DNA from: Spongiibacter sp. IMCC21906
GTDB lineage: Bacteria; Pseudomonadota; Gammaproteobacteria; Pseudomonadales; Spongiibacteraceae
Length of the DNA stretch: 64,000 nt
Assembly (NCBI RefSeq): GCF_001010805.1
Contig: NZ_CP011477.1
Span: 372,001-436,000, forward strand
Direction: 5' to 3'
The translations under genes and the position numbers were made by a program. Shown piece after piece: positions 40,447 to 64,000 of this stretch; position 1 is the first letter of the stretch; each line of letters opens with the position of its first letter. Under the pieces are notes generated by a model. It did not search any database and was not told the DNA's origin. It worked only from the letters and a program-made list of their open reading frames with translations.

Positions 40447-40458
40447 AGGCCAATCATG

Positions 40459-45492: not shown

Positions 45493-45493
45493 A

Positions 45494-46767: not shown

Positions 46768-48615
46768 TTATCCAATTAATAACGCAATTTCATCAAGAAT
46801 AATCGGATCATCAATTGTCGCAGGTACATTAAACTCTTCTTTATCTGCAATTCTTTGTAACGTCGCGCGGAGTATTTTACCTGACCTTGTTTTTGGCAAC
46901 CGTTTTACAACAATCGCTCTTTTGAAGAATGCTACTGGTCCTATTTCATCGCGAACCTTAGAAACAACTTCAGCAACAATATCATTATCCGCTCGCAGTG
47001 TTCCTGAATTTAAAACGAGCAATCCTAGCGGTATCTGCCCTTTCATTTCATCCTTAATTCCAAACACTGCGCATTCTGCAACATCTGGATGTTTAGAAAT
47101 TACTTCTTCCATCTGGCCGGTCGATAGGCGATGGCCTGCTACGTTTATTACATCATCAGTCCGACTCATTATGTAAACGTAGCCGTCGCAATCTATATAT
47201 CCAGCATCACCAGCGCTGTAATAGCCGGGGTATTCTGAAAGATATTTATCAATAAATCCTTGGTCATTCTTCCATAAACTTGGCAATGTTCCTGGTGGCA
47301 ATGGCAGGCGAATTGCGAGTGCTCCCATTTTTCCCGACTCTGATTCGCGGCCGTCCTCCGCCAACACCACTACATCGAAACCCGGTACTGGCTTCCCTGA
47401 CGAACCATACTTAACCGGTAACAATTCAATACCAATACAATTCGCGACAGCCGGCCAGCCCAACTCTGTTTGCCACCAATGGTCGATAACCGGTATACCT
47501 AATTGCCTCTCGGCCCACTGTATAGTGTCTGAATCTGCGCGTTCGCCTCCCAAAAACAAATGTTTAAGGCTAGATAGGTCAAAGTTTTGCGGCCCTTCAC
47601 CCGCTGGATCTTGCTGCTTTATTGCCCTTATTGCTGTTGGTGCCGTAAACATAGCCTTAACTTTATGGCGTTCTATTAATCGCCAGTAAGTTGCCGCATC
47701 TGGCGTTCCAACCGGCTTCCCTTCAAACATGATAGCTGTAGCGCCGCGAATGAGTGGTCCGTAAACGATATAGGAGTGCCCAACTACCCAGCCGATATCA
47801 GAAGCCGCCCAAAATACGTCACCGGGATTAATTCCATAGACATTTTCGAGGCTCCAGTTCATGGCAACCATGTGGCCACCATTATCCCTTACCACACCCT
47901 TGGGATTCCCCGTAGTTCCAGAGGTATAGATTATATAGAGTGGATCAGTAGACTTAAGAGGCTCGCAATCACATGGATCACCACCTTTCTCTACATCATG
48001 CCAATTGAGGTCACGACCGGCTAACATTGTTACCTGCAACTCTGGTCGCTGCAAAATTATGCAATGCTCCGGCTTATGCATAGCTCGATTTATTGCCTCA
48101 TCAAGCAGTGGTTTGTATGGGACTAATCGACCAGGTTCAATACCGCAAGACGCCGATAAAATGAGTTTTGGCTGGCAGTCGTCAATTCGTGATGCTAGCT
48201 CATTAGCCGCAAATCCCCCGAAGACCACCGAATGAATTGCGCCTATTCTGGCGCAGGCCTGCATTGCAACTGCAGCCTCGGGCACCATCGGCATATAAAT
48301 TACAACACGATCGCCCTTACAGACTCCCAGCTCTTTAAGTGCACCTGCAAATCGACTAACTCGATGCAAGAGCGTGCTGTACGAAATATGCTCAATAGTA
48401 TTGGTAACAGGGCTATCATAAATAATAGCAGTTTGATCGCCACGATTATTTTGTACGTGCCTATCTAGACTGTTGTAGCAGGTATTACATTCGCCATCAC
48501 TGAACCACTGATAGAGTGGCGCCTGACTGTCGTCAAGTGTTATCGAGGGCTCCTTAAACCAGTCAATTGATTTGGCAGCCTCAGCCCATATTTTTATATT
48601 TTGTTGTTGATCCAT
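46768..48615 (-). CDS. PrpE-like propionyl/acetyl-CoA synthetase
   Basis: A 615-residue acyl-CoA synthetase of the Acs/PrpE group. Motif A3 YIIYTSGTTGNPKGVVRDNGGH (about 230-252) has the RDNGGH ending typical of propionyl-CoA synthetase. DHWWQTELGWP, YYSAGDAGYIDCDGYVYIMSRTDDVINVAGHRLSTG (A7-A8) and the C-terminal lysine motif LPKTRSGKILR complete the ANL fold. It activates short acids (acetate, propionate, perhaps isobutyrate) to CoA esters. In the cym operon of Pseudomonas putida F1, acetyl-CoA synthetase cymE is the last gene, and here too the gene ends the catabolic string, suggesting it activates the acid released by the ring-cleavage hydrolase. ATG 48615 was taken; TTG 48633 is the alternative. 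Confidence 0.9.
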   Translation of the reverse strand: MDQQQNIKIWAEAAKSIDWFKEPSITLDDSQAPLYQWFSDGECNTCYNSLDRHVQNNRGDQTAIIYDSPVTNTIEHISYSTLLHRVSRFAGALKELGVCKGDRVVIYMPMVPEAAVAMQACARIGAIHSVVFGGFAANELASRIDDCQPKLILSASCGIEPGRLVPYKPLLDEAINRAMHKPEHCIILQRPELQVTMLAGRDLNWHDVEKGGDPCDCEPLKSTDPLYIIYTSGTTGNPKGVVRDNGGHMVAMNWSLENVYGINPGDVFWAASDIGWVVGHSYIVYGPLIRGATAIMFEGKPVGTPDAATYWRLIERHKVKAMFTAPTAIRAIKQQDPAGEGPQNFDLSSLKHLFLGGERADSDTIQWAERQLGIPVIDHWWQTELGWPAVANCIGIELLPVKYGSSGKPVPGFDVVVLAEDGRESESGKMGALAIRLPLPPGTLPSLWKNDQGFIDKYLSEYPGYYSAGDAGYIDCDGYVYIMSRTDDVINVAGHRLSTGQMEEVISKHPDVAECAVFGIKDEMKGQIPLGLLVLNSGTLRADNDIVAEVVSKVRDEIGPVAFFKRAIVVKRLPKTRSGKILRATLQRIADKEEFNVPATIDDPIILDEIALLIG

Positions 48616-48684
48616 TCCTATTTTCCAACTCAATATTAGTCATTAGCTCGAAAACCACACGCAACATAAAAATGATAAACGAAT

Positions 48685-49467
48685 CTAGTTAACGAACTTT
48701 AAATTTAGGCTACCAATATCGCTTATTTCTAACGACATTTGATCACCAACTGAAACTGGCTCTAGCGGTACTAGCGACCCAGATAAAATAATATCGCCTT
48801 TACAAAGACTGATTCCATATTTTCCTAACGTATTTGCAAGCCACGCGACACACGTTAGGGGATTACCCATTGCCTCAATCCCGCGCCCTTCGCTAATAAT
48901 TTGACCATTTTTGTAAACCTGCATATTGCAATTCACAAGATCTACGGTTCTTGGGTCAATCCGACAATCTTGATTAACGGCAAACAAACCACATGAGGCA
49001 TTATCGGCAATAGTGTCTTGAATTTTTATTTTCCAATTATCAATTCTGGAATCAACAATTTCGAAACAAGGCATAACCCATTCCGTTGCGTTAAGAACAT
49101 CCAATTCACTTACCCCTGGCCCCACCAAGTCGCTTTTCAACACAAATGCGATTTCACCTTCCGCGCGCGGTGCAATCATATTCGAAATATCTGCTTCGGA
49201 TTCACACAGCATTTGATTAGTAAGAAAGCCAAAATCTGGTTGCGGAACCCCTAACATCTCTTGAACGGCCCGACTGGTAACCCCAATTTTTTTCCCTATG
49301 ACCCGCTCTCCATCTGATTCACGTTTGCTAAGAAAATGGAGAGATATTTTATACGCATCATCTATACTTAAATCGGGATAGCGGTCGGTTATTGGCTCTA
49401 TGGCGGCGCCGTCCTTTAAAGCGCCATACAGCTCGTCGCCAATACTCTCAATATAATTTTTAGGCAT
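48685..49467 (-). CDS. 2-hydroxypenta-2,4-dienoate hydratase / oxalocrotonate decarboxylase family
   Basis: A 260-residue fumarylacetoacetase-fold protein of the MhpD/DmpE/DmpH/XylJ group. GERVIGKKIGVTSRAVQEMLGVPQPDFGFLT, ISNMIAPRAEGEIAFVLKSDL (with the metal-binding E-x-E), MPCFEIVDSRIDNWKIKIQDTIADNASCGLFAV and GNPLTCVAWLANTLGKYG are its conserved blocks. The enzyme adds water to 2-hydroxypenta-2,4-dienoate to give 4-hydroxy-2-oxovalerate, the substrate of the aldolase encoded at 56.5 kb. Decarboxylase members look nearly the same, so the hydratase call rests on the presence of a hydrolase, aldolase and acylating dehydrogenase in the island. It is 69 bases downstream of nothing but the ADH string; next gene follows in the same direction. 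Confidence 0.86.
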   Translation of the reverse strand: MPKNYIESIGDELYGALKDGAAIEPITDRYPDLSIDDAYKISLHFLSKRESDGERVIGKKIGVTSRAVQEMLGVPQPDFGFLTNQMLCESEADISNMIAPRAEGEIAFVLKSDLVGPGVSELDVLNATEWVMPCFEIVDSRIDNWKIKIQDTIADNASCGLFAVNQDCRIDPRTVDLVNCNMQVYKNGQIISEGRGIEAMGNPLTCVAWLANTLGKYGISLCKGDIILSGSLVPLEPVSVGDQMSLEISDIGSLNLKFVN

Positions 49468-49482
49468 ATCAATAATTCAACT

Positions 49483-50586
49483 CTAGATTAAACAAACTGC
49501 TTTAATACATTTTCCACTATGCTGAGCTGCGACCGCATCATTAATTTTTTCGAACGGAAATTGTTGACACAATTTGTTAAATGGAAACTTATTATCCAAA
49601 TATAAGTCTACCAATGTCGGAATAAACTCATGAGGATCTGCATCTCCCTCACAAATCCCCTTAACTTTAATCCCCTTTAATATCATCGTTAAAACATCAA
49701 AACTTGCGGCGCTGGCCTCTGGCTTAGGCATGCCAACTAAACCTAGCGTGCCACTAAATCCCATCGCGCTAAATACGGCTGAAATCACCGACTGAATACC
49801 GCTAGTGTCTAGCGCATAATCAAAACCGCCAACAGCAATTTCCAATAAAGCGTCACTTAGGCTACTTACGTTATTCGGGTCGACTACATGAGTAGCTCCC
49901 AACTCCAGCGCTAACTCCCGCCGATTCTGATGTGGCTCAATAATAACAATTGGATTACAGCCCTGGACAACGGCTCCCAATACGGCACTTAGGCCCACAG
50001 CGCCACCACCTGAAATCACTACCGAGGTACCTGCCTTACAGGAAAAGGCGCGCATGATTGCACCTGCACCGGTTTGGATGCCACATCCCAGCGGACCAAG
50101 GAGATCCAAGGGTGCATCATTTCTAACCTTTACAACATTATCCTCGTACGCTAAGGCAAAATTAGCAAAGGAAGACTGGCCAAAAAAGTGGCCCGATATC
50201 CTCTTCCCACCAGAAGACAACGCGGAGCTACCATCAGCACGTCCACCCGACATATTTAGAGGTGCAAAGCTCTCACAATAACTGTAATTATCTCTGCTAC
50301 AACTTCGACAAATCCCGCAATGCGAGTAAGATAAAACGACATGGTCACCAGGCTTAACAGAACGCACTTCACTACCAACCTTTTCTACAATACCCGCCCC
50401 TTCGTGCCCAAGAACGGCTGGCAGTGGTATAGGGAGCTGCTGATCTCGCGCGACAATATCAGTATGGCAAATTCCAACACCAACTATTCTTACTAATACC
50501 TCATTTTTTCTAGGTTCCTCCATCTGGAGGCTTTCGATAGAAAAATCTTTACCAGCTTCTCGCACAACTGCAGCATTGATTTCCAT
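49483..50586 (-). CDS. Zinc-dependent aryl-alcohol dehydrogenase (XylB/CymB-like)
   Basis: A 367-residue MDR-superfamily dehydrogenase. GICHTDIVARDQQLPIPLPAVLGHEGAGIVEKVG supplies catalytic zinc ligands (Cys, His, and Glu region). CGICRSCSRDNYSYC gives the four structural-zinc cysteines. GCGIQTGAGAIMRAFSCKAG provides the third catalytic cysteine, and VVISGGGAVGLSAVLGAVVQG the NAD-binding G-x-G-x-x-G. Segments fit aryl-alcohol dehydrogenases such as benzyl and p-cumic alcohol dehydrogenase. It would oxidise the benzylic alcohol made by the XylM-like hydroxylase. The aldehyde dehydrogenase gene lies upstream on the same strand after 149 bases, and the hydratase follows 15 bases after its stop. 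Confidence 0.88.
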   Translation of the reverse strand: MEINAAVVREAGKDFSIESLQMEEPRKNEVLVRIVGVGICHTDIVARDQQLPIPLPAVLGHEGAGIVEKVGSEVRSVKPGDHVVLSYSHCGICRSCSRDNYSYCESFAPLNMSGGRADGSSALSSGGKRISGHFFGQSSFANFALAYEDNVVKVRNDAPLDLLGPLGCGIQTGAGAIMRAFSCKAGTSVVISGGGAVGLSAVLGAVVQGCNPIVIIEPHQNRRELALELGATHVVDPNNVSSLSDALLEIAVGGFDYALDTSGIQSVISAVFSAMGFSGTLGLVGMPKPEASAASFDVLTMILKGIKVKGICEGDADPHEFIPTLVDLYLDNKFPFNKLCQQFPFEKINDAVAAQHSGKCIKAVCLI

Positions 50587-50735
50587 AATAAATCCTAGTT
50601 ACGTAAAGTTTAATTAACAATAATAAAATCTTACTCTAGATATAAAAAAGCGACTTGTAACACCAAATTTATAACTTAATATTAAAGTCGCAAGCTGGGT
50701 GAAGTTTCAACACAACTAATTAATCACTCTAAAAC

Positions 50736-52226: not shown

Positions 52227-52250
52227 TTTTATAATTGGATTTTCATTTCA

Positions 52251-53318
52251 TTAATTGTGGCGAGAAAGACCATGGCTCGCGTCTAGAAATTTATCTGCAT
52301 GAATATTGTTGGCAGTAACACCTAATGCACCAACCGTCTCCGATACAGCATCAATCATTGGCGGCGGGCCACATACGTAAACTTGCGTTTCACCACTTAA
52401 ATACTGACTTGCCGCTGACTCTATCGCAGAATTTACAAACCCGCGCATACCTGTCCAATCGCTGTCTTCAGGTTCATTGGACAACACCGGTATAAACTTG
52501 AACGGACTGTCCCAAGATTTTTCAATCTCATTTATTCTATCAAGACAATAAAGATCTTCCCGAGTACGTGCGCCAAAGAACATAACACAAGGGCGCCCCT
52601 GGCTACTTTTTGCAGCTTGTTCTAGTAAACTCACAATAGGCGCCAACCCACTACCGCCAGCAACACAAACAATTGGGCCAAGACCTTCACGCAACCAAAA
52701 GTTTCCCGCAGGACCATGAACTTTAACTGTACCTTGATCCAACTTCCCGTCGAACAACATACCAGTGAATTCGCCGCCTGGCACATGACGAATAAACAAG
52801 TCTATCTCTCTACATCCCGCATCTTTAGGCGCCATCGCGAATGAATATGACCGCGCACCATATATAGCTTCGTGATGAATTTGAACATATTGTCCTGCAT
52901 CAAAATGAATCGGCCGATCAAGCTTAATCCTTACGCGTTTGGTATCGTGGGTTAGATCTTCTATTGCAACAATTTGACCATCAAAATCTTCGGGAGGAGT
53001 AAGCTTTTTTATTTCAAAATCAGGGACGCTCAAGGTGACATCCGATTTCAACGCAGCCTGACAGGTCAATATAACGCCATCTTTAAGTTCTTGCCCGTTC
53101 AATATATAAGCAAAATTACTTAGCTCACGAATACGCCCCTGCTGCAACTTACACTTACATGTACCACAAGTTCCTACAGTACAACTATGCGGCATTGCAT
53201 AACCTGCGGCCAAGCCTGCCTCTAGTATGGACTGCCCCGGCTTCACCGAGAAACTAACGCCTGACGGATTAATAGTTACACGGTTACTTGATGACTTTAA
53301 AAATCGAAATAACGACAA
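52251..53318 (-). CDS. NADH:ferredoxin-type reductase of an aromatic monooxygenase (XylA/CymAb-like)
   Basis: A 355-residue three-domain reductase. The N-terminal plant-type [2Fe-2S] domain (about 12-100) has C46, C51, C54 and C86 (HSCTVGTCGTCKCKL, TCQAAL). The FAD domain has ARSYSFAMAP and GGEFTGMLF. The NAD domain has GPIVCVAGGSGLAPI, MFFGARTREDLYCLD, IPVLSNEPEDSDWTGMRGFV and VYVCGPPPMIDAV. The order and motifs follow XylA of xylene monooxygenase closely (for example the ELS-NFAYILNGQ stretch and LYCLDRINEI). It would deliver electrons to the membrane hydroxylase at 62.2 kb, although nine kilobases separate the genes. BenC-type dioxygenase reductases share the architecture. Confidence 0.9.
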   Translation of the reverse strand: MSLFRFLKSSSNRVTINPSGVSFSVKPGQSILEAGLAAGYAMPHSCTVGTCGTCKCKLQQGRIRELSNFAYILNGQELKDGVILTCQAALKSDVTLSVPDFEIKKLTPPEDFDGQIVAIEDLTHDTKRVRIKLDRPIHFDAGQYVQIHHEAIYGARSYSFAMAPKDAGCREIDLFIRHVPGGEFTGMLFDGKLDQGTVKVHGPAGNFWLREGLGPIVCVAGGSGLAPIVSLLEQAAKSSQGRPCVMFFGARTREDLYCLDRINEIEKSWDSPFKFIPVLSNEPEDSDWTGMRGFVNSAIESAASQYLSGETQVYVCGPPPMIDAVSETVGALGVTANNIHADKFLDASHGLSRHN

Positions 53319-53445
53319 ATCTCATAATCCTGTATATTCAATGTAAACGATTTTTTATAAATTCAAATTTCGCAATCACCTCTATATACATAGACAACCT
53401 TAATCTCAAGTTTGAATAGGTAGGCAACGCGAATCGATTCAACAC

Positions 53446-53985
53446 TCAATGAAGGCTCTCAAGAATCTCTTTGGTTAAATTATCAGGTGAAACCAAAACA
53501 GACAACTCATTAAAAATATCGAATGAATCCAATAAAAGCGTTCCATTTCCAGCGAGGGGCAAGGGAGACGATATTAACGGAATTGGCGGTAATACTATAA
53601 GCGATGAAGATAGCAGCGTCCCACCTCCGCTGAGATACGTAACTATATCGGAAGGTCGATCAAATAAAACCTCGACCCCAGGTATAAAGCCAAAAATCAA
53701 CGTTGAACCAATTGATGACGGGACCTGAGCGCTAGGATCTCCAAGAATACCTTCTACTGCACCAATAAGTAGCCCCCCCCGATCTAACAGAAAAGGTATA
53801 TCGGTCAATGAAGATTGTATATTTTGTAGACTCAATGTACCCGTAGATACATTGCCAACAATAGGAATTTCACCTAATTGTGGAACTAGAATTCCACCTA
53901 ATTGTTGAACTAGATTCTGAGAAAATGTATAGAAACTCATAATAGACAACACCATAAACAATAATGCCTTTTTTATTTTATTCAT
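53446..53985 (-). CDS. Small exported protein of unknown function
   Basis: A 179-residue protein with a clear signal peptide (ALLFMVLSIMSFYTFSQN, cleavage around residue 23). The mature chain is uncharged over long stretches, Leu/Ile/Pro/Gly/Ser-rich, with a near-repeat QQLGGILVPQLGEIPIVGN, and further FLLDRGGLLIGAVEGILGD and LIVLPPIPLISSPLPLAGNG. It has no cysteines after the signal and ends in a charged tail (LTKEILESLH). I do not recognise it. It lies between the TonB receptor and the reductase on the same strand (86 and 127 bases away), so it may be a periplasmic or outer-membrane helper in hydrocarbon uptake. The pattern suggests a beta-rich, surface or lipid-binding protein, which is inference. 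Confidence 0.65.
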   Translation of the reverse strand: MNKIKKALLFMVLSIMSFYTFSQNLVQQLGGILVPQLGEIPIVGNVSTGTLSLQNIQSSLTDIPFLLDRGGLLIGAVEGILGDPSAQVPSSIGSTLIFGFIPGVEVLFDRPSDIVTYLSGGGTLLSSSLIVLPPIPLISSPLPLAGNGTLLLDSFDIFNELSVLVSPDNLTKEILESLH

Positions 53986-54071
53986 CGTCTAACTCTCCAC
54001 TAATAGTAAATTTAACTCTAAAACTAACTGTTTTTATTAGAGCTTTTCATATTATAAATACAACATGACTG

Positions 54072-56408
54072 CTATAGCAGAACATCAAAATTCCATTTAA
54101 TTCGCATTCCATATGTCATAGGCGGAGCTAAGGTAACTGATCTTCCAAAATCATGTTGTAATATTGCGCTATAATAATCTTTATCTTTTATGTTATTTAC
54201 AAAAGCAGTAAGCTGAATACCGGTAGGGTTATAAAAATATGAGACTCTTGCATTCCACAATTCATACTGATCCTGCACATAGAATTCTGAGTTTTGCGGA
54301 GTAGCGTAAAATCCACTGTTATAATAATAGTCCAGACCTAGCTCGATATCAGAATTATCAGTAACGCCAACGAACTGATTAACTGACATACTTGAACTAA
54401 ATCTCGGAGTTCGAACTACTCTGTTGTTGGTAAAATCTCGAGAAGTATCGCCCACGACACCGTCTGGCCCAAAGTACAATCCAGTATCATCGTCAAATCC
54501 AGCACCATTTTTATAATCGGTGTATGTCGCGTCAATATAAGTTGCATTTCCCGCTATAGCCAAACCGGGATTGAGGACCGGCATTGGCTGCCACATAAAA
54601 TCTGCTTCAGCACCCTCCGTCTCTGCTTCTCCTGCATTATCAAACCGGACAATGCCTCCGGAAGTAATCGATAGAACTGCAGTCAGAAGATCTTTTGTTT
54701 CCGTTTTAAAATAAGCTGCATTTAAACGAAGATTGCCATCAAATAGATCGCTTTTCACACCGATCTCGAAGGCTGTCACCTCCTCCCTGTCGACGCTCTC
54801 TGGACTGGAGAAGAAATTCACAATATTGTAAGTTGGGCTTTTATATGCACGCTGAAGCGATGCGAACATCTGCACTTGGTCTGCAGGGAAATATTGAACA
54901 GATACCTTAGGAGAAAATGTTTTATCCTCAACATCATCAACCTCGAACTCTGCCAACCTTACATTCCTGGAATAATCATTTCCCTCGAAGTATGAAGCCG
55001 GCGGCGGTGTAGGAAGGGTGTTTACCAAATCCAAGTAGCTTTCACTGATACCTCTTGTTTCCTCTTGATAACGTGCACCAAGCGTAAGCGACCATTCACT
55101 GTTAAATGACCATGTGCCCTGGAGATAAGCAGAATTTGACTCCGTTTCTAAAATTCCCGCAGCCTCCAATATTATATCTTGGTTTTGATTTACGAGAAGA
55201 TCACTTACTATTTCTGGTAACCCAACAACATTTGAAACGAAGCCTAGGGCATTCAGAGATAAAAGCAATCTCCCATAACCTCCCTCCCCTTCTAGCCGAT
55301 AAAGTCCCGCCACCCACTCAAGATTACTGCTTAGCCATGAGTCTTCGTTAGACAACAACTGAAGCTCATAGGTAGTTTGCATATTATATTGATCGTACGA
55401 TGAGAATGTTGCTTGACTATTTTCTGATGAGTCAAAGTCGTACTGTGTCCAATCGACGTCCATATTTGTGTCTGCATAAATAAATTTCAGATCAACTGGA
55501 CCTGGACTCCAATCTACGATAAGTCCGTATAATGTGCTTATATTTGCGCTTCCACCGTCATAGTTATGCTTAAAATCTCTGTCTTCTTCTTCTGCAGGAA
55601 CACCCCCCGCTAAAATTGCGCTTGGGCGTGAGTTTTCCTGGCTCATCAATGATTTTCCATTAAATTGATTGATATAAGACCCTATGAAGGTTGCACTTAT
55701 AGTATCTGAAATATCCCATTTTAATTTCAGTCTTGCTCCCTCTGAAAATTCATCTCTTATGGGCCCTGGCTCACCATTAACTATAGCTAAGTTTTTCCCA
55801 TACGGATCATTTGAATCCTTGAATAACGCAACCGTCGCACCCAGACTGCTTGTTACCATTCCCCCCATAAACAATTGATATGATTCTGAATTGTATTTAC
55901 TTTTTTCGGCCTTTAAATTACCTATAAATTCTTCACTAGGATCTGCCGTTACAATACTAATTGCACCACCTGTTGCGTTACGACCAAACAATGTGCCTTG
56001 CGGGCCCTTTAATACTTCCACACGCTGTACCGGCCCAAGGGAATCCATTTTTCCTTGACTCGCAGGTAAATTAATCCCATCAATATAAGTAGCTATACTA
56101 GGATCAGTATTAGCTAGAAATGCATCTGTACCAACTCCTCTTAAATAGATAACTGCGTATCCATACGTATAGGTAAAGGTTAATCCAGGTGTGATTCTAG
56201 CCAAGTCAGCCGTATTTTCTATACCAAAAGCATCTAGTTTATCTTCACTAAATGCCGTAATCATTATTGGGACATCCTGTGAATTCTCTTCTCTCTTTTG
56301 CGCGGTAACCATAACCTCTTCTATTAGCCTGCTAGATCGTCCAATCTCATCGGAAATCGCTAGTGACGAAACATATATCGAACAACAGACTGCCATAAAT
56401 TTCTTCAT
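54072..56408 (-). CDS. TonB-dependent receptor, probable uptake of hydrophobic aromatic substrate
   Basis: A 778-residue outer-membrane receptor. A short signal peptide (FMAVCCSIYVSSLAISD) is followed by a TonB-box-like IEEVMVTAQKREE, typical of the group often linked to catabolic clusters. A plug domain spans about 40-155 (VPIMITAFSEDKLDAFGIENTADLARITPGL, VQRVEVLKGPQGTLFGRNATGGAISIVTADP). The remainder is a beta-barrel with RDFTNNRVVRTPRFSSSMSVNQF and a final strand MTYGMRIKWNFDVLL. It is not adjacent to siderophore genes; it sits inside the aromatic island, so a hydrocarbon or its oxidised product is the plausible cargo. CymD of the cym operon is also an outer-membrane protein. Confidence 0.88.
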   Translation of the reverse strand: MKKFMAVCCSIYVSSLAISDEIGRSSRLIEEVMVTAQKREENSQDVPIMITAFSEDKLDAFGIENTADLARITPGLTFTYTYGYAVIYLRGVGTDAFLANTDPSIATYIDGINLPASQGKMDSLGPVQRVEVLKGPQGTLFGRNATGGAISIVTADPSEEFIGNLKAEKSKYNSESYQLFMGGMVTSSLGATVALFKDSNDPYGKNLAIVNGEPGPIRDEFSEGARLKLKWDISDTISATFIGSYINQFNGKSLMSQENSRPSAILAGGVPAEEEDRDFKHNYDGGSANISTLYGLIVDWSPGPVDLKFIYADTNMDVDWTQYDFDSSENSQATFSSYDQYNMQTTYELQLLSNEDSWLSSNLEWVAGLYRLEGEGGYGRLLLSLNALGFVSNVVGLPEIVSDLLVNQNQDIILEAAGILETESNSAYLQGTWSFNSEWSLTLGARYQEETRGISESYLDLVNTLPTPPPASYFEGNDYSRNVRLAEFEVDDVEDKTFSPKVSVQYFPADQVQMFASLQRAYKSPTYNIVNFFSSPESVDREEVTAFEIGVKSDLFDGNLRLNAAYFKTETKDLLTAVLSITSGGIVRFDNAGEAETEGAEADFMWQPMPVLNPGLAIAGNATYIDATYTDYKNGAGFDDDTGLYFGPDGVVGDTSRDFTNNRVVRTPRFSSSMSVNQFVGVTDNSDIELGLDYYYNSGFYATPQNSEFYVQDQYELWNARVSYFYNPTGIQLTAFVNNIKDKDYYSAILQHDFGRSVTLAPPMTYGMRIKWNFDVLL

Positions 56409-56456
56409 AGTTTAACCCTTATTTTTATAATTAATTTAATAATACTAACATTATTT

Positions 56457-57470
56457 TTATTTATTTGCTGATATCGTTAGTGCCAGATCTTCGATCATAT
56501 CTTCTTGACCACCGACCGTGCCGCGCCGTCCCAATTCAACCAATACATCGCGAGCCGAAATGCCGTAGCGCTGCTCGGCGCGTTTAGCAAATAGCAAAAA
56601 CGAGCTGTAAACACCGGCGTAGCCAAGCGTGAGCGCATCCCGATCAATACGAATCGGGCTATCCATCATGGGTACGACGAGGTCTTCCGCCACATCCATG
56701 ATTTTGTATAAATCTATGCCGGTTTTCATATCCATACGTTGTAAAACCGCGACCAACACTTCTAACGGGGTATTGCCTGCCCCAGCGCCAAGCCCAGCTA
56801 CTGAACCATCAATCCGCGCCGCACCCGCGTTAATGGCGGCAACCGAATTAGCCACGCCCATCGCAAGATTGTGATGACCGTGAAAACCAATCTCGACGTT
56901 ATCTGGCAAGCCATTTCTAAGCGTTGATATTTTCTCGGTGACTTCTTCTGGCAACATAAAGCCCGCCGAGTCTGTGCAGTAAAGACAGTTAGCGCCGTAG
57001 CTCACCATTAGCTTTGCTTGTTCTAATAAGGCGTCTGCAGAAATCATATGCGCCATCATCAAAAAGCCAACAGTGTCTAAACCCAGCTTTGCTGAGTAGG
57101 CGATATGTTGCTGAGACACGTCAGCTTCTGTGCAATGAGTTGCGACTCTTAAGGTGCTTACGCCACAGGCCTGCGCCATGCGAATGTGGTCAACCGTACC
57201 AATTCCCGGCAATAGCAGGGCCGACACTTTTGCCTGTGTCATTTTGGGGATAACCGCATTGAGATATTCTTCGTCGCTGTGCGCCGGAAAACCATAGTTA
57301 ACCGACGCGCCACCCAAGCCGTCACCGTGAGTGACTTCTATTAGCGGCATACCCGCAGCGTCTAATGCCGTTGATACCGCAACCATTTGCTCAATGGAAA
57401 TCTGATGGCGTTTTGAATGCATGCCATCGCGCAGGCTCATGTCATGCAATTTCACAAATTTATTTGTCAT
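56457..57470 (-). CDS. 4-hydroxy-2-oxovalerate aldolase
   Basis: A 337-residue aldolase of the DmpG/MhpE/BphI type. The N-terminal [19 protein letters not shown] has the R-D-G-x-H Mn-binding and catalytic start, [24 protein letters not shown] follows, and [45 protein letters not shown] includes the metal-binding His pair. The C-terminal communication domain ends with [21 protein letters not shown] sequence. It splits 4-hydroxy-2-oxovalerate into pyruvate and acetaldehyde (or propanal from the homologue). The ATG at 57470 with AAAGGTG upstream was chosen over GTG 57479. The partner acylating dehydrogenase is encoded 49 bases upstream. Base composition is richer in GC than the neighbouring Rieske genes. 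Confidence 0.94.
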
Positions 57471-57519
57471 ACTCTGCACCTTTCACTGGTCGGCTATTAC
57501 AAGGTAGCGGCGTAAATTA

Positions 57520-58422
57520 TTAGGCCGTAATAGCACTCGCTTCCGCGAGCTTTTGGGCAATCATTTCCGCTGTGCGCAATGCTGCCGCCGTCATGATGTC
57601 GAGGTTGCCCGCATACTTAGGCAAATAATCACCCAGCCCCTTAACTTCCATATACATAGAGACACGCTGGCCATCAAATACCGGCCCATTCACCAAGCGA
57701 TAGCCCGGTACATAGCGCTGCACTTCACTTACCATTTCATGCACCGATGCGGTAATGGCGGCTTGATCCGCCTCGCCTTCAACCAAGCAGTGAATGGTAT
57801 CGCGCATAATGAGTGGTGGCTCAGCAGGGTTAATCACGATGATCGCCTTACCCTGTTTCGCGCCGCCTACCTTCTCCACCGCGCTAGCGGTGGTACGGGT
57901 AAATTCATCAATATTGGCGCGAGTACCCGGACCAATTGAACGCGAAGATACCGTGGCTATAATCTCGCCGTAACTAACCGCTTGCACCCGCGACACCGCC
58001 GCCACCATCGGAATAGTCGCTTGACCACCGCAAGTGACCATATTGACGTTTTGAATATTGCCTTGGCTTAAGGCGTCTAAATTAACGGGAGGAATACAAT
58101 AAGGGCCAATGGCTGCAGGTGTGAGATCGATCATCGTCACCCCAAGCTCATTCAGTTTGCGACTGTTTTCCGCGTGGACATAGGCAGAGGTCGCATCGAA
58201 GGCGAGAGTAATACCATCTGCTTTAATAAATGGCAGCACGCCATCCACGCCCTCTGCACTGACTTTAATGCCCATTTCTGCAGCGCGTTTTAGACCGTCG
58301 GACTCGGGGTCTATACCCACCATCCACACCGGCTCAACCCACTCCGAACGCAGCATTTTTATCAACAAATCGGTACCGATATTACCGGGACCAATAATGA
58401 CTGCTTTCAGCTTCTTATTCAT
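57520..58422 (-). CDS. Acetaldehyde dehydrogenase (acylating), DmpF/MhpF type
   Basis: A 300-residue CoA-acylating aldehyde dehydrogenase. The Rossmann start [19 protein letters not shown] binds [21 protein letters not shown] holds the catalytic C131, and later [31 protein letters not shown] and [35 protein letters not shown] are conserved. It forms a channelling complex with the aldolase and turns acetaldehyde or propanal into acetyl- or propionyl-CoA. The start ATG is the family start ([11 protein letters not shown]). It lies between the hydrolase and aldolase genes, as in many meta-pathway operons, and shares the higher GC of the aldolase gene. Confidence 0.95.
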
Positions 58423-58464
58423 ATTTCACCTATGATTAATCCTAGAATATTGAGAGATCAATAT

Positions 58465-59298
58465 TTAAAGAATCAAAAAACTTTTTACTAAGTTAGAAAA
58501 TTCAGCTGGCTTTTCAACTTGAGTCCAATGCCCGCATTCACCGTATATATGTATCTGTGAATTTTTTATTAGGCGATGTGCTTTGATGGAGTTTTCCATT
58601 GGCACAATGACATCTTCTCGGCCATGAACCATCAAGGCCTTATGCTGAATTTGTGCGATTTCGTCTTCAGGTATACCCAAGCCGTCCAGCTTTTCTTGCA
58701 TGGGTTCTGGGAATAACTTCTCGTAAGCTTCTTGGTAGCCGGGGCGAATACTAGCTTCATAACGCGACTTGATAATTTCTTCGCTGACCAGATCTTGTCT
58801 ATACGCAAAAATAGACATTAGGCTGCGCATTGCGTCTACCGAGGGCTTATAACCCCACACTTCGCGCAGGCCATCGGTTATTTCAAAATGAATACCCGCA
58901 GCGCCCATCATTACGAATCGGTCAACGCGCTCGCCGTGGCGTGCGGCCATGGCAAGACTAATTGCACCACCGAAGGAGTTACCCACAAAATGCGCTTTAT
59001 CAACCTTAATCGCGTCCATGAACTGGCACATAAACCGCAACCAGTTATCTAAATTGTATTCAAAGCCGTCTGGGTTGTCGGTATAGCCAAAGCCAATGAC
59101 ATCCGGTGCAATCACGTGAAAATCATTTTCTAAAGCTGGAATAAGCAAACGCCAATTAGCGTAAGCCGTTACGCCGGGGCCTGAACCGTGTAATAAAATT
59201 ACGGTGGGATTACTGCGGTCACCCGACTCTAAATAGTTCGCTTCGTAGCCGTCTGCCAATTCAACTCGTTTTCCCATTTCCGGGTTTAGATTGCTCAC
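58465..59298 (-). CDS. Meta-cleavage product hydrolase (alpha/beta hydrolase, XylF/DmpD/BphD-like)
   Basis: A 277-residue alpha/beta hydrolase. VILLHGSGPGVTAYANWR forms the oxyanion-hole loop, VGNSFGGAISLAMAARH the nucleophile elbow, MVHGREDVIVPMENS the acid residue and YGECGHWTQVEKP the histidine. The Ser-Asp-His set and the HGSGPG loop are those of carbon-carbon bond hydrolases cleaving ring-fission products to 2-hydroxypenta-2,4-dienoate plus an acid. The frame is open to 59364 but would overlap the dioxygenase beta gene; a GTG at 59298 preceded by AAGGTG gives the usual N-terminal length and a 40-base gap. It is placed between ring dioxygenase and lower-pathway genes, as expected. Confidence 0.92.
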   Translation of the reverse strand: MSNLNPEMGKRVELADGYEANYLESGDRSNPTVILLHGSGPGVTAYANWRLLIPALENDFHVIAPDVIGFGYTDNPDGFEYNLDNWLRFMCQFMDAIKVDKAHFVGNSFGGAISLAMAARHGERVDRFVMMGAAGIHFEITDGLREVWGYKPSVDAMRSLMSIFAYRQDLVSEEIIKSRYEASIRPGYQEAYEKLFPEPMQEKLDGLGIPEDEIAQIQHKALMVHGREDVIVPMENSIKAHRLIKNSQIHIYGECGHWTQVEKPAEFSNLVKSFLIL

Positions 59299-59338
59299 AT
59301 TTACGCACCTTAATTTACGTATAATTTGTACAAATAAA

Positions 59339-59830
59339 TTACACTGAGTAGATATCCAAAACATTGGGAATTATTTCATTCATCACCAGAACTTTACGTT
59401 TAGCGATCTTCATTTTATCGTTGTCTAAAAACAGGGTATGTATTTGACCGCCGAAAAAATAATGCTCAGTCCCATTTTTATAACTAAAAGTCGCCCAGTT
59501 TGACTTCACTTCAAAAAATGAGTTGCCTATATCTTTAAAGCTTGTGGGTGTAATAATATGACATGTGCGCGGCAAAGGAGTCGACGCCAAAGATCGCCCA
59601 GTTTTTATCCGATAAACACGATCTTCTAGCCCAGCTCGCTCGGAATAATAGATCATCGACAACTCGGTTTTAGGATCGTTGGTGCTGTCTAGTTCGTCGC
59701 GCCAACATGGAATCCAATACTCGGCATTGGTCAAATATAAATCCAACCAACCATCCCAATCTCTGCTATCCAACAACTGACCCTCAGACACAACTAAACG
59801 CGTTGCCAATCGTTCATTCTCAAAATTCAT
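59339..59830 (-). CDS. Aromatic-ring-hydroxylating dioxygenase beta subunit (BenB/XylY-like)
   Basis: A 163-residue small subunit with the NTF2-like fold of Rieske dioxygenases. ERLATRLVVSEGQLLDSRDWDGWLDLYLTNAEYWIP is the family start, and SMIYYSERAGLEDRVYRIKTGRS, PRTCHIITPT and AKRKVLVMNEIIPNVLDIYSV the C-terminal blocks. It matches benzoate/toluate dioxygenase beta subunits in length and pattern. It has a structural role, forming the alpha3-beta3 hexamer. The alpha gene ends 22 bases upstream. AT-rich codon use, like the alpha gene. Confidence 0.92.
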   Translation of the reverse strand: MNFENERLATRLVVSEGQLLDSRDWDGWLDLYLTNAEYWIPCWRDELDSTNDPKTELSMIYYSERAGLEDRVYRIKTGRSLASTPLPRTCHIITPTSFKDIGNSFFEVKSNWATFSYKNGTEHYFFGGQIHTLFLDNDKMKIAKRKVLVMNEIIPNVLDIYSV

Positions 59831-59852
59831 GATTTATTCCTAGTTTCTTAGT

Positions 59853-61181
59853 CTAGTCGTTAAGCGCTTGAAGCAGCATATCTTTCCACCGTCTATGTTG
59901 ATTCAGGTAAATTCCCTCATCCTCTAGACCAGTGCCGTAAAACTGAGGTTTCAAATCTAATTGAAGAGTTCTTTCATCTGGAACTGTAAGTAAATTTTTA
60001 GCGCCACGAGAAATATCACTCCACTCAGCGCGCATAGCCATAAACCCTTCTTGACTATAATTAAACGCAGCAAGATCATCCGGCGTTGCCATTCCGGCTG
60101 CGTTAAAAAAGTCTTCATATTGACGAATCCGAAGGGCCCTTGCTTCTCGGCTTTCATTTTTTGGCGCAAAGCATAATGTCTGAATTTCTGTTTTATTCAC
60201 AGAAATAGGCTGAATAATTCGAATCTGAGTGCTCATTTGATCCATAAGAAATACATTTGGATAGAGGCACAAATTTCTCCAACAATTATGCATCCACCAC
60301 GAACGCACACCTCCTACTCGGGCCTCACGCTTTTCTCTACTAGCCCAAGTCGGTCTCGCATCAGGATTAGGCGTTTGATTCCAGAGTACAACATGACCAT
60401 TTTCAAATGCATAATAGCCACCCGGCAGCTTTGAAAACCCACTGACATCCATGGGCTTTACGGCACTTTCAGATTCAAGCTTAGTGCGATTATTAACGGT
60501 CATCACATAATTGCCGTGTATTGAGCCTATGTGATATCCATCAACTCCATTTTCACACTGAAGCTTCCAATTGCCATCAAAAGTATACTTCTGGACACCC
60601 GGAATCACTTCTATTTCCCCATTAGGATCCTGATCAATAATGAGATCTATAAATTTTTTCGCCTCGCCCAAATGATCACTCAATCTCGGAACGTCATCCG
60701 CAAGACTCCCAAAAATGAACCCACGATAACTTTCAATTTTTGCTATAGGTGTTAGGTTTAACTTTGCTTTATCAAAATTATCACTGTATCCGGCTTTTTC
60801 CACATCGCCGCAACTTTGCAACTTGCCATCTGCATCGTACGACCACGAATGAAAAGGGCAAACAAACCGGCGCTTATTCCCCGCCGCAGTTAAGGCCAAT
60901 TTCGCCCCACGATGCGCACACGCATTGAGGAGGCCACCTATTTTGCCTTGCTCATTACGATTAACTATTACCGGCTGCCGACCTATTTTACTTGTTACAA
61001 AATCACCTGGAGCCGGCAACTGACTCTCATGAGCAAGATATACCCAACCAGCCTCAAAGATATTTTCCATTTCAAAATTAAAAATATCTTCGTCTGTGAA
61101 CATAGAACGCTTCACTCTATAAATTTGTCTTTCTTCATCCTCAGACAGAAGATCTTCTATTAAAATTTTATCGACGCTCAT
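59853..61181 (-). CDS. Aromatic-ring-hydroxylating dioxygenase alpha subunit (benzoate/toluate type, BenA/XylX-like)
   Basis: A 442-residue Rieske oxygenase large subunit. The Rieske site is C88-x-H90 (NACAHRGAKL) and C108-x2-H111 (CPFHSWSY). The catalytic iron site is in CENGVDGYHIGSIH, with D214 the electron-bridging residue and H217 and H222 ligands. GGYYAFENGHVVLWNQTPNPDARP, RNLCLYPNVFLMDQMSTQIRI and FFNAAGMATPDDL are blocks shared with BenA and XylX rather than with biphenyl or toluene dioxygenases. The reaction would be 1,2-dihydroxylation of a benzoate-like carboxylate. No BenC-type reductase lies directly beside it; the XylA-like reductase at 52 kb could serve. The start ATG is ordinary. 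AT-rich relative to the window. Confidence 0.93.
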   Translation of the reverse strand: MSVDKILIEDLLSEDEERQIYRVKRSMFTDEDIFNFEMENIFEAGWVYLAHESQLPAPGDFVTSKIGRQPVIVNRNEQGKIGGLLNACAHRGAKLALTAAGNKRRFVCPFHSWSYDADGKLQSCGDVEKAGYSDNFDKAKLNLTPIAKIESYRGFIFGSLADDVPRLSDHLGEAKKFIDLIIDQDPNGEIEVIPGVQKYTFDGNWKLQCENGVDGYHIGSIHGNYVMTVNNRTKLESESAVKPMDVSGFSKLPGGYYAFENGHVVLWNQTPNPDARPTWASREKREARVGGVRSWWMHNCWRNLCLYPNVFLMDQMSTQIRIIQPISVNKTEIQTLCFAPKNESREARALRIRQYEDFFNAAGMATPDDLAAFNYSQEGFMAMRAEWSDISRGAKNLLTVPDERTLQLDLKPQFYGTGLEDEGIYLNQHRRWKDMLLQALND

Positions 61182-61324
61182 AGATATACCTTACAAAGAA
61201 TCTCGATTTTATTTTAGTAATGCTAGCATGTCAGTTTATGGGTGACTAGCCTGAATTTTATTTATTTTCTATTATTGTAGTACATAGTTTGCTACGAAAT
61301 AATACATCGGCTTCCGATATTTAA

Positions 61325-62155
61325 TTAAAGCTGGCAAGTAGTCTTATCAAAAAAATCTCCTCGGCTACTTCTCATCTTCGGCAACCAATAAGGCAACTTA
61401 CTCATCATACCGCCATCAACATCGATGGCCTGCCCCGTCACCATAGCTGACATATCTGACGCCAAAAATATAGCTACATTTGCAATATCAGACGGCGACG
61501 CAATTCGTGGTAACGGAGTTTCTGTTGCAAACAATTCAAATGCTCCATTATCCAATGTCTTTCGTCCTCGCTCTGTTAATACAGCGCCTGGCACCACAAC
61601 ATTGCAGCGAATATTATTGCGGCCATACGTGACTGCAACCTCTTTACTTAATTGATTCACTGCCGCTTTTGAAGCACTATAAGCTGCCAAATCGACCGTA
61701 GCAAAACGCGATGCAGCGGAAGAAATATTGACAATGGCACCACCACCAGCATCTATCATATGTTGCAATACATATTTACAGGCTAACATTGCACTAGTCG
61801 CATGGGCCCATAATGTCTTATTCCAGTCTTCCACCAACATATCTTTAATTTCACTATCTGGAGCAACTGTACGAGGCACACCCACACTATTAATAAGTAC
61901 ATCCACTCTTGAATATGTCATTGCTGTAAAATCGAATAGACCTTTTATTTGATCTTCATAAAAAATATCTAATTTAAAGAACTCAACTTCGCCGCCTTTA
62001 CTTTTTATGCGATTTTTGAGCTCTATACCAACCCCTTCATTTATATCTGCAATCATCACTTTTGCACCAAGATCAGAAAGCTTATTTACACAAGACTCGC
62101 CGATACCACTCGCCCCTCCCATCACTACTACTACTTTTCCACGCAAGTCATTCAT
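61325..62155 (-). CDS. Short-chain dehydrogenase, possible cis-diol dehydrogenase
   Basis: A 276-residue classical SDR. VVVVMGGASGIGESCVNKL is the NAD-binding G-x-x-x-G-x-G, DINEGVG the cofactor specificity site (Asp favours NAD), NSVGVPR the NAG-equivalent, VNISSAASRF the catalytic Ser, and YSASKAAV the catalytic Tyr and Lys. The C-terminal tail from YWLPKMRSSRG is longer than usual. Beside the benzoate-type dioxygenase, its natural role would be to turn the dihydrodiol carboxylate into catechol, as BenD or XylL do, although overall it looks like a generic SDR. The frame opens at 62284; M at 62155 (MNDLRGKVVVVMGG) is the family start. Confidence 0.82.
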   Translation of the reverse strand: MNDLRGKVVVVMGGASGIGESCVNKLSDLGAKVMIADINEGVGIELKNRIKSKGGEVEFFKLDIFYEDQIKGLFDFTAMTYSRVDVLINSVGVPRTVAPDSEIKDMLVEDWNKTLWAHATSAMLACKYVLQHMIDAGGGAIVNISSAASRFATVDLAAYSASKAAVNQLSKEVAVTYGRNNIRCNVVVPGAVLTERGRKTLDNGAFELFATETPLPRIASPSDIANVAIFLASDMSAMVTGQAIDVDGGMMSKLPYWLPKMRSSRGDFFDKTTCQL

Positions 62156-62207
62156 AGCAAGCCCTGTATAATTTTTAAAATTGATACCTATAAAGTTAAA
62201 GATATTT

Positions 62208-63290
62208 TTAATTAGCAAACCAATCGGGCCAGCCCGCCGCCTTATTCTGAGTTTTGGCGATAGCACGCTCACTATCATTCGCATGATTTAGATCCCACTC
62301 ACGTAGCGCCGGCATAATGATAAATTTTGTCCACACTGGCGGTATAATTGCCGCCATAAAACAAGTAAATACACTAGGCAGCTTCACCGCATCCACATCA
62401 GGTTTTAACTCATAATATGGCATATATGAATTTAGATGATGATCAGCGTGATTTGTGATCTCAAATGTCATTGCACGACTTAACGCACCAAGATGATTCC
62501 ATACATGGCGCTTTTCTATAGGCTCACCCTCTACTCGCACCTGACCATAATGCTGAAAGTAGTTAAACGCTTCCAATAAAAATCGAGCGAGGATACCAGC
62601 TACATAGCAAGCCGCCATTCCTTGCCACCCACCAATTAGGAACATCACAACCCCAAACACAATTAATGCTGCAAGCCCTTTCCAAATTCTATGACGGATA
62701 GACCACCGGCCAAACCCTCTTCTCTCCATTGAATCAGACTCCATGCGCTGCGACGTCACAAAACTATGTATCATCGCCTCAACTCCAAATGCATACAGAG
62801 ATTGACCGCGCCTTGCAGTATCACCATCTTTATTGGTCCCTACATCAATATGATGCCCAACCACATGCGCTATGTCCCGAGTGGGATCCATATAGAACAC
62901 CTGAAAACACAATCCAAAATTTCTTAAAAAAGAATCTCTGCGATGGAACATTTCATGGAAAGCAGGTATACCTACGATAGTTGCTGTCCAACCTGTAGAA
63001 ATCACAGCGCCAATTGTATTAAAGGCCGTTAAACCACCTTCACCCACTCGCATAGATAATAGAAAATAGGCGGATGCAGCCAGTATCGAAGTAATAACTA
63101 CTGGAACGTAGGCTAGCCACATTATTTTGATATTTCGTGTTCTTAAATCTCTGGGGAGAATTGCATCACCCAACGCTAAAGCAGGTAACGTTGCTAATCC
63201 TAGCCAGACATATCCTCCCCCTAAAACCAGACCAACAACACTTACCAATATTGTCAGCGGGGAAAGGTAATATATTATGTAATCTTTCAT
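62208..63290 (-). CDS. Membrane di-iron hydroxylase (XylM/CymAa/alkane hydroxylase family)
   Basis: A 360-residue integral membrane oxygenase. Paired N-terminal hydrophobic segments (SPLTILVSVVGLVLGGGYVWLGL, YVPVVITSILAASAYFLLS) precede histidine box 1, H112-EMF-H116; box 2 is H142-VVG-HH147; box 3 is NHADHHLN near residue 300, with NYFQHYGQVR between. These bind the two irons. The spacing and the short N-terminus resemble xylene and p-cymene monooxygenase hydroxylases (XylM, CymAa), which attack a methyl group on an aromatic ring. It needs an NADH reductase; the XylA-like gene at 52 kb fits. ATG 63290 follows GGTGATAATA; GTG 63299 is the alternative. Confidence 0.92.
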   Translation of the reverse strand: MKDYIIYYLSPLTILVSVVGLVLGGGYVWLGLATLPALALGDAILPRDLRTRNIKIMWLAYVPVVITSILAASAYFLLSMRVGEGGLTAFNTIGAVISTGWTATIVGIPAFHEMFHRRDSFLRNFGLCFQVFYMDPTRDIAHVVGHHIDVGTNKDGDTARRGQSLYAFGVEAMIHSFVTSQRMESDSMERRGFGRWSIRHRIWKGLAALIVFGVVMFLIGGWQGMAACYVAGILARFLLEAFNYFQHYGQVRVEGEPIEKRHVWNHLGALSRAMTFEITNHADHHLNSYMPYYELKPDVDAVKLPSVFTCFMAAIIPPVWTKFIIMPALREWDLNHANDSERAIAKTQNKAAGWPDWFAN

Positions 63291-63351
63291 TATTATCACC
63301 AAATTCTATTTATCATTAATCACATAAGAAATATTATTATTTGATTAAAAA

Positions 63352-64000
63352 TTAAAGTTCGACATCCAATCCCATTCCGGACGCCTCAATTTGGTGTCCA
63401 AAAACATCATTCTCGTGGTATTGCTGCTGCGATGACGCCACCACGCCACCCCACCCCAACTCCATCAACCATCCAGAAGGCGTTGCCGAATAGAAAGTTA
63501 AAGCCTGATCATTTGCATGTTTTCCAAGATTAAGCGCAACATCAATTTTCTTTGTACGAATAATGTCATGGGCCATACCTAAGTCATCAAGAGAACGGTA
63601 TTCGATCATGAAATGATTTAGTAGTTTTTGGCTTGGAACTCCGAATGCAATAGAATGCTGTCGATTATTGCAATGCATGAATATTGGCTTCGCCACTCCA
63701 TCAGGGGTTTTCAAGTGATACTCGATTGACCCACTCAAGCCCAGAAGCTCATAGAACTTATATGACGCGATTGGATCGTCACTTGCTACGAGCGCATGCC
63801 CCATCCCCATATCATCGGTAACAAACCCACTATGCATTCGACGACCAGGGTAAAGCGGCAGATGACCATCAACCTGTGGACCGTAAAATATTTCCGTTGG
63901 AACACCCGCTGGATCCCGGGTCTTAATCAACCCCAGAACACGCCGCTCTTTGGCCTCAGCCGAACTTCCTACCTTATATGCGATTCCCGCTTCTGAAAGC
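63352..64000 (-). CDS. Extradiol dioxygenase, BphC-type (N-terminus beyond window)
   Basis: The frame is open to the right edge, so the start is outside; 215 residues are visible. The C-terminal vicinal-oxygen-chelate domain has GMGHALVASDDPIASYKFYELLGL (first Fe-ligand His), QHSIAFG, NHFMIEYRSLDDLGMAHD (second His) and GKHANDQALTFYSATPSGWLMELGWGG (catalytic His and Glu ligand). These are the signatures of 2,3-dihydroxybiphenyl 1,2-dioxygenase-like, type I two-domain enzymes. The start of the visible part (GIAYKVGSSAEAKERRVLGLIKTRDPAG) is the end of the N-terminal domain. It would cleave the catechol made by the SDR. Being minus strand, it is upstream of all island genes seen here. Confidence 0.92.
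   Translation of the reverse strand, partial: LSEAGIAYKVGSSAEAKERRVLGLIKTRDPAGVPTEIFYGPQVDGHLPLYPGRRMHSGFVTDDMGMGHALVASDDPIASYKFYELLGLSGSIEYHLKTPDGVAKPIFMHCNNRQHSIAFGVPSQKLLNHFMIEYRSLDDLGMAHDIIRTKKIDVALNLGKHANDQALTFYSATPSGWLMELGWGGVVASSQQQYHENDVFGHQIEASGMGLDVEL

Follow-up and report, generated by a model that had tools for sequence, protein, structure and literature searches.

Two described pathways stand closest to the catabolic operon analysed here, which begins within a window of 64,000 nucleotides of the Spongiibacter sp. IMCC21906 genome (G000:C1:372001-436000; 3.48 Mb in two contigs) and runs past its right end into the adjoining stretch L003 (L003:2257 corresponds to 64257 on the window scale). 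In the cym/cmt system of Pseudomonas putida F1 and Burkholderia xenovorans LB400, as excerpts of PMC5224996 describe it, XylM/CymA-type methyl oxidation, an alcohol dehydrogenase (ADH) and an aldehyde dehydrogenase (ALDH) are combined with a CmtE-type hydrolase, a hydratase, an aldolase, an acylating dehydrogenase and a CymE-like ligase, all of which have counterparts in the operon. According to the same excerpts (PMC5224996), CmtD makes 2-hydroxy-6-oxo-7-methylocta-2,4-dienoate, CmtE cleaves it, isobutyrate is among the end products, and the role of CymE is called unknown. The operon differs from cym/cmt in having no CmtD, CmtC or p-cumate dioxygenase, and in having a benzoate-type dioxygenase, another short-chain dehydrogenase/reductase (SDR) and a BphC-type enzyme. 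With the TOL plasmid pWW0 it shares methyl oxidation, decarboxylating benzoate-type dioxygenation and meta cleavage, whereas the plasmid encodes a BenC and a XylL of its own together with a catechol 2,3-dioxygenase and a 2-hydroxymuconic branch; identity to the pWW0 proteins is 46% for BenA and 37% for XylM. Open reading frames (ORFs) and family scans revealed neither the XylE catechol 2,3-dioxygenase nor the XylG/H/I branch in the operon, and neither a BenC of the dioxygenase's own nor a BenD/XylL was found there. Membership of the TOL type was rejected on the extradiol enzyme, BenC, XylL and the XylM clade. It appears rather probable that the operon encodes the complete breakdown of an alkyltoluene with its alkyl group meta or ortho to the methyl group, m- or o-cymene fitting best, as the cargo of a Tn7-like transposon deleted for tns.

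ORFs and family scans place 15 genes in the operon, all on the minus strand, between 46768 and 64257. Every enzyme gene that the first-pass annotation, made from the letters of the window, had listed in one orientation was recovered as an uninterrupted minus-strand frame. The sequence to the right of 64 kb, which it had wished to see, contains the end of the BphC gene at 64257, a divergent GntR gene, an ORF with a DUF2326 domain and glmS. It had missed the small ORF at 53446-53985, GntR, the adjoining glmS, the transposon and the rare alphaproteobacterial module described below. The genes are as follows.

46768-48633, minus strand: AMP-forming acyl-CoA ligase of propionate/acetate type; 80.4% identical to the ligase of a separate cmt-like cluster of the host
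48685-49467, minus strand: 2-oxopent-4-enoate hydratase, putative CmtF role; host copy 67.8%
49483-50586, minus strand: zinc ADH, putative CymB/XylB role; 61.5% to the host copy in L163
50736-52226, minus strand: ALDH, putative CymC role; G011 copy 79.1%, no host copy in the stretches fetched
52251-53318, minus strand: 2Fe-2S/FAD/NAD reductase, XylA/CymAb-type; 78.0% to the host copy; sole reductase of the operon
53446-53985, minus strand: small secreted-type hydrophobic protein; 40.3% over 72 aa to a G014 ORF
54072-56408, minus strand: TonB-dependent outer-membrane receptor; 55-58% to genus receptors
56457-57479, minus strand: 4-hydroxy-2-oxovalerate aldolase, putative CmtG role; host copy 85.8%
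57520-58422, minus strand: acylating acetaldehyde dehydrogenase (AcDH), putative CmtH role; host copy 81.5%
58465-59364, minus strand: meta-cleavage-product (MCP) hydrolase of the CmtE/CumD kind, from the best solved structure (1iun) and pocket residues
59339-59830, minus strand: BenB, small subunit of a benzoate-type dioxygenase, from family scan and homology
59853-61181, minus strand: BenA, large subunit of a benzoate-type Rieske dioxygenase, from family scan, homology and tree
61325-62284, minus strand: SDR, proposed dihydrodiol-carboxylate dehydrogenase, from family scan; 27.1% to XylL of pWW0
62208-63302, minus strand: XylM-like membrane di-iron hydroxylase, from family scan, tree and motifs
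63352-64257 (the window ends at 64000; gene end L003:2257), minus strand: BphC-type extradiol dioxygenase
L003:2610-3389, divergent from the operon: GntR-FCD regulator

Several of the listed ORFs start too far upstream; judged against homologues, the true starts of the SDR and the hydrolase are probably near 62155 and 59304, respectively. The dioxygenase subunits are best matched by the benA (551.2 bits; cut-off 780.95) and benB (150 bits; cut-off 225.55) models, and the reductase scores 205.4 bits with the BenC model, below the cut-off of 430. The histidine boxes of XylM, the Rieske CxH..CxxH, the SDR YxxxK and the ferredoxin cysteines are all present. An AMP-ligase is present where the first-pass annotation had placed a PrpE-like synthetase, but that label is loose, the best NCBIfam model (propionate-CoA ligase) giving 720.4 bits against a cut-off of 955.

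In the proposed pathway, the TonB receptor and the small secreted-type protein would assist uptake, and the methyl group would be converted to a carboxylate by the XylM-like hydroxylase with its reductase, followed by ADH and ALDH. The BenAB-type dioxygenase, presumably served by the same reductase, would oxygenate carbons 1 and 2, and the SDR would convert the resulting dihydrodiol into a 3-alkylcatechol in an oxidation that releases CO2. Ring opening by the BphC-type enzyme is predicted to yield 2-hydroxy-6-oxo-7-methylocta-2,4-dienoate, which CmtD also forms when p-cumate is degraded. The CmtE-type hydrolase would release isobutyrate from this compound; the ligase probably activates isobutyrate or another short acid, and the hydratase, aldolase and acylating dehydrogenase would yield pyruvate and acetyl-CoA. 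The GntR-FCD protein may regulate these genes. So read, the operon would be a cym/cmt pathway in which a decarboxylating block has taken the place of the usual one for ring attack (CmtA, B, C and D). In a benzoate-type attack the SDR that follows removes the carboxylate, so that CmtD would not be needed; no CmtD or CmtC match occurs within the transposon, where CmtAb and CmtAc match only BenAB, at 31.4 and 27.6%. An m- or o-isopropylbenzoate would give 3-isopropylcatechol and thereby enter the lower cmt route at the CmtE substrate.

The closest solved structure to the hydrolase is 1iun, a hydrolase of the CmtE substrate (322.7 bits; best chain of any other protein, 182.5). Residues A129, L139, V142 and W143 are as in CumD, whereas XylF of pWW0 has V129 and A142; the island hydrolase has L and I in place of the I199 and V226 found in CumD. 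The positions compared are those which we take to line the CumD pocket. These features bear on p-cymene, one of the substrates the first-pass annotation had offered. A second p-cymene pathway, with p-cumate oxygenated at carbons 1 and 2 and ring cleavage of 4-isopropylcatechol, would suit the cym-like upper genes and the cym/cmt-like genes of the host genus. However, 4-substituted catechols normally go via a dehydrogenase/isomerase/decarboxylase branch; the para compound would give 4-isopropylcatechol and hence need this TOL pWW0-type branch, which was not found in the operon, where only a hydrolytic branch with a ketone-cleaving hydrolase of the CmtE/CumD kind is seen. The host, moreover, already has a separate cmt-like cluster. 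p-Cymene is therefore the less supported substrate, and such a second pathway is judged quite unlikely.

The same logic with acetate or propionate released would make the operon a TOL-like pathway for methyl- and ethylbenzenes such as m-xylene, m-ethyltoluene and o-xylene. The ligase does resemble acetate/propionate ligases, and the nearest solved relatives of the extradiol enzyme are 2wl3, called a catechol 2,3-dioxygenase (386.4 bits) and which we take to be AkbC of Rhodococcus DK17, followed by 1,2-dihydroxynaphthalene dioxygenases (368 bits). Against this, XylM groups with genus and sphingomonad copies, away from the TOL XylM (37%), and the hydrolase pocket is CmtE/CumD-like rather than XylF-like, which leaves methyl- and ethylbenzenes as unlikely substrates that still deserve some weight. 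In the m-/o-cymene pathway preferred here, one reductase would presumably serve both oxygenases. The operon reductase is 38% identical to XylA and 31% to BenC of pWW0, and a reductase search of the host gave, beyond the island copy and its 78% homologue, a next match of 26% identity.

Gene-by-gene scores, which split clearly, indicate that the operon is a chimera of at least two gene sources. Sixteen genes, GntR included, were compared with loci retrieved from 4 of the 18 genomes of the genus (G000, G014, G011 and G001) and with three alphaproteobacterial sources. Nine of them best match cym/cmt-type loci of the genus, with 57-86% identity and genus/alphaproteobacterial bit ratios of 1.34-4.39; the first-pass statement that the set holds counterparts of most cym genes is thereby refined to one of relatedness. 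A tenth, the small secreted-type protein, has a genus match only (40.3% over 72 aa) and no family match in the scans. Its gene comes after that of the TonB receptor, and in G014 both the similar ORF and a second one, named by eye, likewise come after TonB receptors (L169:5596-6213 and 15678-16409); a weak match lies in G011 (L171, near 3955-4440). BenA, BenB, SDR, BphC and GntR best match alphaproteobacterial loci (42-60% identity; bit ratios 0-0.39), and XylM is near even (ratio 1.12, about 50% identity to both). The first-pass idea that an alkylbenzene is degraded by a hybrid of xylene/cymene-type, benzoate-type and meta-cleavage modules is supported. In small trees, the genus copies enclose those of the island for aldolase, hydrolase, reductase and ALDH, while AcDH, hydratase, ligase, ADH and TonB receptor branch just outside them, which fits an origin of the genus-like genes in the host genus or a near neighbour.

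The separate cmt-like cluster of the host (L126, G000:C1:2890001-2910000) contains a ligase, a hydratase, dioxygenase subunits, a CmtD-like class II aldolase, an aldolase, an acetaldehyde dehydrogenase, a hydrolase, an SDR and a CmtC-type enzyme, those with no island homologue being named by eye from sequence and place. The host also has a reductase-ADH-TonB locus (L163) and a further XylM-like gene (L125); the genus TonB receptors in L163 and L172 adjoin the same reductase/ADH types. No reductase was seen in L126 among ORFs of at least 140 aa, a size at which a ferredoxin-sized ORF would be missed; this contrasts with the four-component p-cumate dioxygenase elsewhere, and the CymAb-type reductase may serve the host cluster too. 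The island keeps the cmt order of hydrolase, AcDH, aldolase, other genes, hydratase and ligase, with TonB, small protein, reductase, ALDH and ADH occupying the place that CmtD and the dioxygenase have in the host cluster. Derivation from at least two sources would also be expected if the upper, dioxygenase and lower genes served separate pathways and merely travelled together. Such co-travel seems extremely improbable, as the genes lie on one strand over 17.5 kb and retain part of the cmt order, a candidate gene exists for every step of the one route proposed, and the missing CmtD is an enzyme that this route would not need.

The dioxygenase module of the chimera has its counterparts on the Sphingopyxis macrogoltabida 203 plasmid (NZ_CP009430) and in the metagenome-assembled genome (MAG) UBA3612. 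Compared by sequence alone, these share BenA, BenB, SDR, BphC and GntR with the island at 42-60% and likewise show no reductase match beside BenAB, but the gene orders differ and the TonB receptors are distant. A tree of 27 chosen BenA rows, covering 11 of the 15 loci at 40% identity or more (L009, L010, L011 and L020 were left out), unites the three copies with a support of 1.0 and separates them from the BenA, XylX and further relatives in the sample. No reductase match beside the Ben genes was detected on the Sphingopyxis plasmid or in UBA3612, and no BenD by name in their ORFs and annotations; the three plasmid Ben loci taken for comparison all have both. The clade looks rare. Across 396 genomes of UBA3612's order, with the four best candidates scored per genome, no genome but UBA3612 has a copy exceeding 48% identity, and in 115 host relatives the next best BenA reaches 52%.

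The Sphingopyxis plasmid carries the BenAB-SDR-BphC-GntR-TonB module at 327-334 kb, matches to the cmt set at 314-322 kb (about 5 kb from the module) and reductase, ALDH and XylM at 283-287 kb (XylM about 41 kb from the module). In UBA3612 a CmtE-type hydrolase follows BenAB, and hydratase, aldolase and acetaldehyde dehydrogenase lie on the same contig, in which no CmtD match was found. These relatives also bring a bulkier aromatic terpenoid into consideration, from which the hydrolase would free a larger acid: UBA3612 has a different AMP-ligase beside the hydrolase (23.5% to the island ligase), many acyl-CoA genes are present on the Sphingopyxis plasmid, and uptake would be through a TonB receptor. 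However, the same receptor type occurs in cym-like loci of the genus, and the island ligase is of short-acid type, 80% identical to that of the host cmt-like cluster; a terpenoid substrate is accordingly regarded as very unlikely.

A tns-deleted Tn7-like transposon, inserted behind glmS at attTn7, carries the operon; the element is classified here as a derivative rather than an active member. Like Tn7 and Tn7-like transposons, the island lies at attTn7 behind glmS and has a 5-bp duplication, TGT ends, and spaced left and abutting right repeats; unlike them, it has lost the tns genes except the start of tnsA. It extends over 21,233 bp from 45399 to L003:4631 (66631 on the window scale), with TGT..ACA termini, TGTAAATTGAC at 45399 and TGTAGATTGAC at L003:4631 on the opposite strand, both flanked by CAACA. 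The duplication begins 19 bp past the glmS stop. The left-hand features are as follows, together with both copies of the duplication.

45394-45398 (left) and L003:4632-4636 (right; 66632-66636 on the window scale): target-site duplication CAACA, read from the sequence
45399-45491, plus strand: left end of the transposon, with the TGTAAATTGAC terminus and two putative repeats of the TnsB-site kind
45492-46283: insertion-sequence-like remnant with 23-nt inverted repeats, within the left end of the transposon, named by eye

Of the left-end repeats, one spans 45407-45426 and the second, found by eye, lies just ahead of 45492; at the right end, three abutting 20-bp repeats (L003:4564-4623) stand directly behind glmS. 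The repeat at 45407-45426 is an inverted copy of the 20-bp repeat with 3 mismatches, and no such copy arose in 100 window shuffles; the 3.48-Mb host genome has 4 matches, versus 1 for the reversed control pattern. A search of L003 for the classic Tn7 end motif gave none, the element having its own repeats. Inside the right end, a tnsA remnant retains the first 54 codons (72% identity, E 6e-19), beyond which the reading frame is disrupted. Searches of the transposon with TnsB, C, D and E gave nothing below E 0.6, and the TnsA N-terminal domain has no match in the host genome; a TnsA-domain match occurs in 5 of the 18 genus genomes, 4 of them above the cut-off. After the tnsA remnant come the DUF2326 ORF (L003:3461-3925) and an ORF with no match (3974-4417), which are possibly earlier cargo of the transposon.

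Across 293 genomes of the order, the end-repeat pattern with at most 3 mismatches was matched in 58, and the reversed control in about 84; since control genomes outnumber pattern genomes, single matches were taken as chance and only abutting arrays were followed. Such arrays stand out in G208, G246 and G145. Those of G208 and G145 adjoin a Pfam-confirmed glmS, and the neighbour in G246 is a 608-aa ORF of glmS length. The proteins that follow in G208 (L214) fit TnsA, TniB/TnsC and TniQ/TnsD models, with no Pfam match for the ones at the TnsB and TnsE positions; TnsA is confirmed in G246, and G145 has a TnsB-sized protein with a Mu-transposase C-terminal match. L214, L215, L216 and L217 appear to be complete Tn7-like elements at glmS in other members of the order, with the same end repeats. 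Over about 94 nt, the left end resembles the presumed left ends of elements in L216 (G145; 75.8%) and L218 (G208; 77.7%), and the right end is 79.6% identical to G246 over 250 nt.

Several points weigh against the interpretation given above. An exact empty site was not found among 16 genus relatives, in which DNA matches behind glmS comprise only glmS, DMT and spike-domain genes and one 75-nt piece. Judged by the reversed controls, a lone match with 3 mismatches, like that of the left repeat, is not unusual in a genome; the left end is called from its position, the CAACA duplication and the 94-nt similarity, not from a single repeat match. The SDR is only 27% identical to XylL, its decarboxylating step being assumed from pathway logic, and sharing of the reductase by both oxygenases is likewise assumed, because the operon has no second one. 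What the ligase and the TonB receptor do is guessed from their relatives, and the hydrolase could accept methyl or ethyl side chains too, with m-xylene or m-ethyltoluene as substrates. As regards the chimera, G001 and G005 of the genus hold BenA-family genes at 51-52% elsewhere in the genome, the genus BenA figure of 32% applying only to the fetched cym/cmt loci, and genus BphC-family copies outside those loci reach 37%; both are still lower in identity than the alphaproteobacterial copies. The trees of genus-like genes conflict on inside or outside placement, with node support down to 0.22, so that any immediate donor can be named only tentatively.

The G+C content of the operon genes and GntR is 0.387-0.470, except for the aldolase (0.501) and AcDH (0.519), and that of five flanking genes is 0.475-0.508. 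In the gap between BphC and GntR, promoter-like sites (3; shuffles 3.3) and terminators (0; shuffles 1.0) are at chance level, and the inverted repeats are weak. No tRNA genes were found in the window or in L003-L005, hence no sign of a tRNA-borne island. In 7 of the 16 relatives, the 12.5-16 kb inspected behind glmS include the DMT transporter gene (41876-42835 here); the gap between glmS and this gene is about 6.3 kb in G014, the closest by GlmS (88%), versus 23.8 kb in the host. Just outside the left end, 43688-45088 matches a phage head spike fiber domain (39.1 bits; cut-off 36), and a 63% homologue sits between glmS and the DMT gene in G014. Further away, 34498-41879 contains IucA/IucC-like and hydroxylase-like siderophore synthesis genes with an MFS exporter, named by eye.

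The Tn7-like element of Cupriavidus metallidurans CH34, in the parts of PMC3384475 seen here, resembles the island in its putative aromatic-degradation cargo, but it lies away from attTn7 and carries two tnsD genes. It was the only such case among the matches listed (6 of 7, 11 of 12 and 1 of 1) in the open-licence literature on Tn7-like aromatic-degradation cargo, as judged by titles and abstract openings, and since it is on record, cargo of this kind has a precedent. Both parent kinds, pathway and Tn7-type cargo, are known, and the island is a variant of each, as a cym/cmt pathway with a swapped ring-attack block and as cargo, the substrate assignment being a prediction. In the same literature, the titles and abstract openings of the matches listed (25 of 8,424, 15 of 91 and 5 of 5) gave no aerobic m-/o-cymene gene cluster, which does not prove that none exists; in the text available, PMC11881993 names 3-isopropylcatechol once and PMC4561516, on anaerobic bacteria, names m-cymene twice. 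The operon might tentatively be viewed, at somewhat less than even confidence, as the first gene set for full m-/o-isopropyltoluene breakdown: a one-operon chimera with a dioxygenase of a BenC/BenD-less clade sharing the reductase of the hydroxylase, spread as a Tn7-type cassette into the attTn7 site of a host with a cmt-like pathway.

Cymene is a plant and petroleum compound, and 3-alkylcatechol and isobutyrate are the intermediates predicted for its m- and o-isomers. An apparently whole mineralisation pathway would here have moved as Tn7-type cargo, among which a survey, in the portion available, reports few complete pathways (PMC8649781). If the proposal is true, pathway assembly would have proceeded by keeping a known lower half, swapping in a ring-attack block that meets the same intermediate, and dropping the enzyme that is no longer needed.

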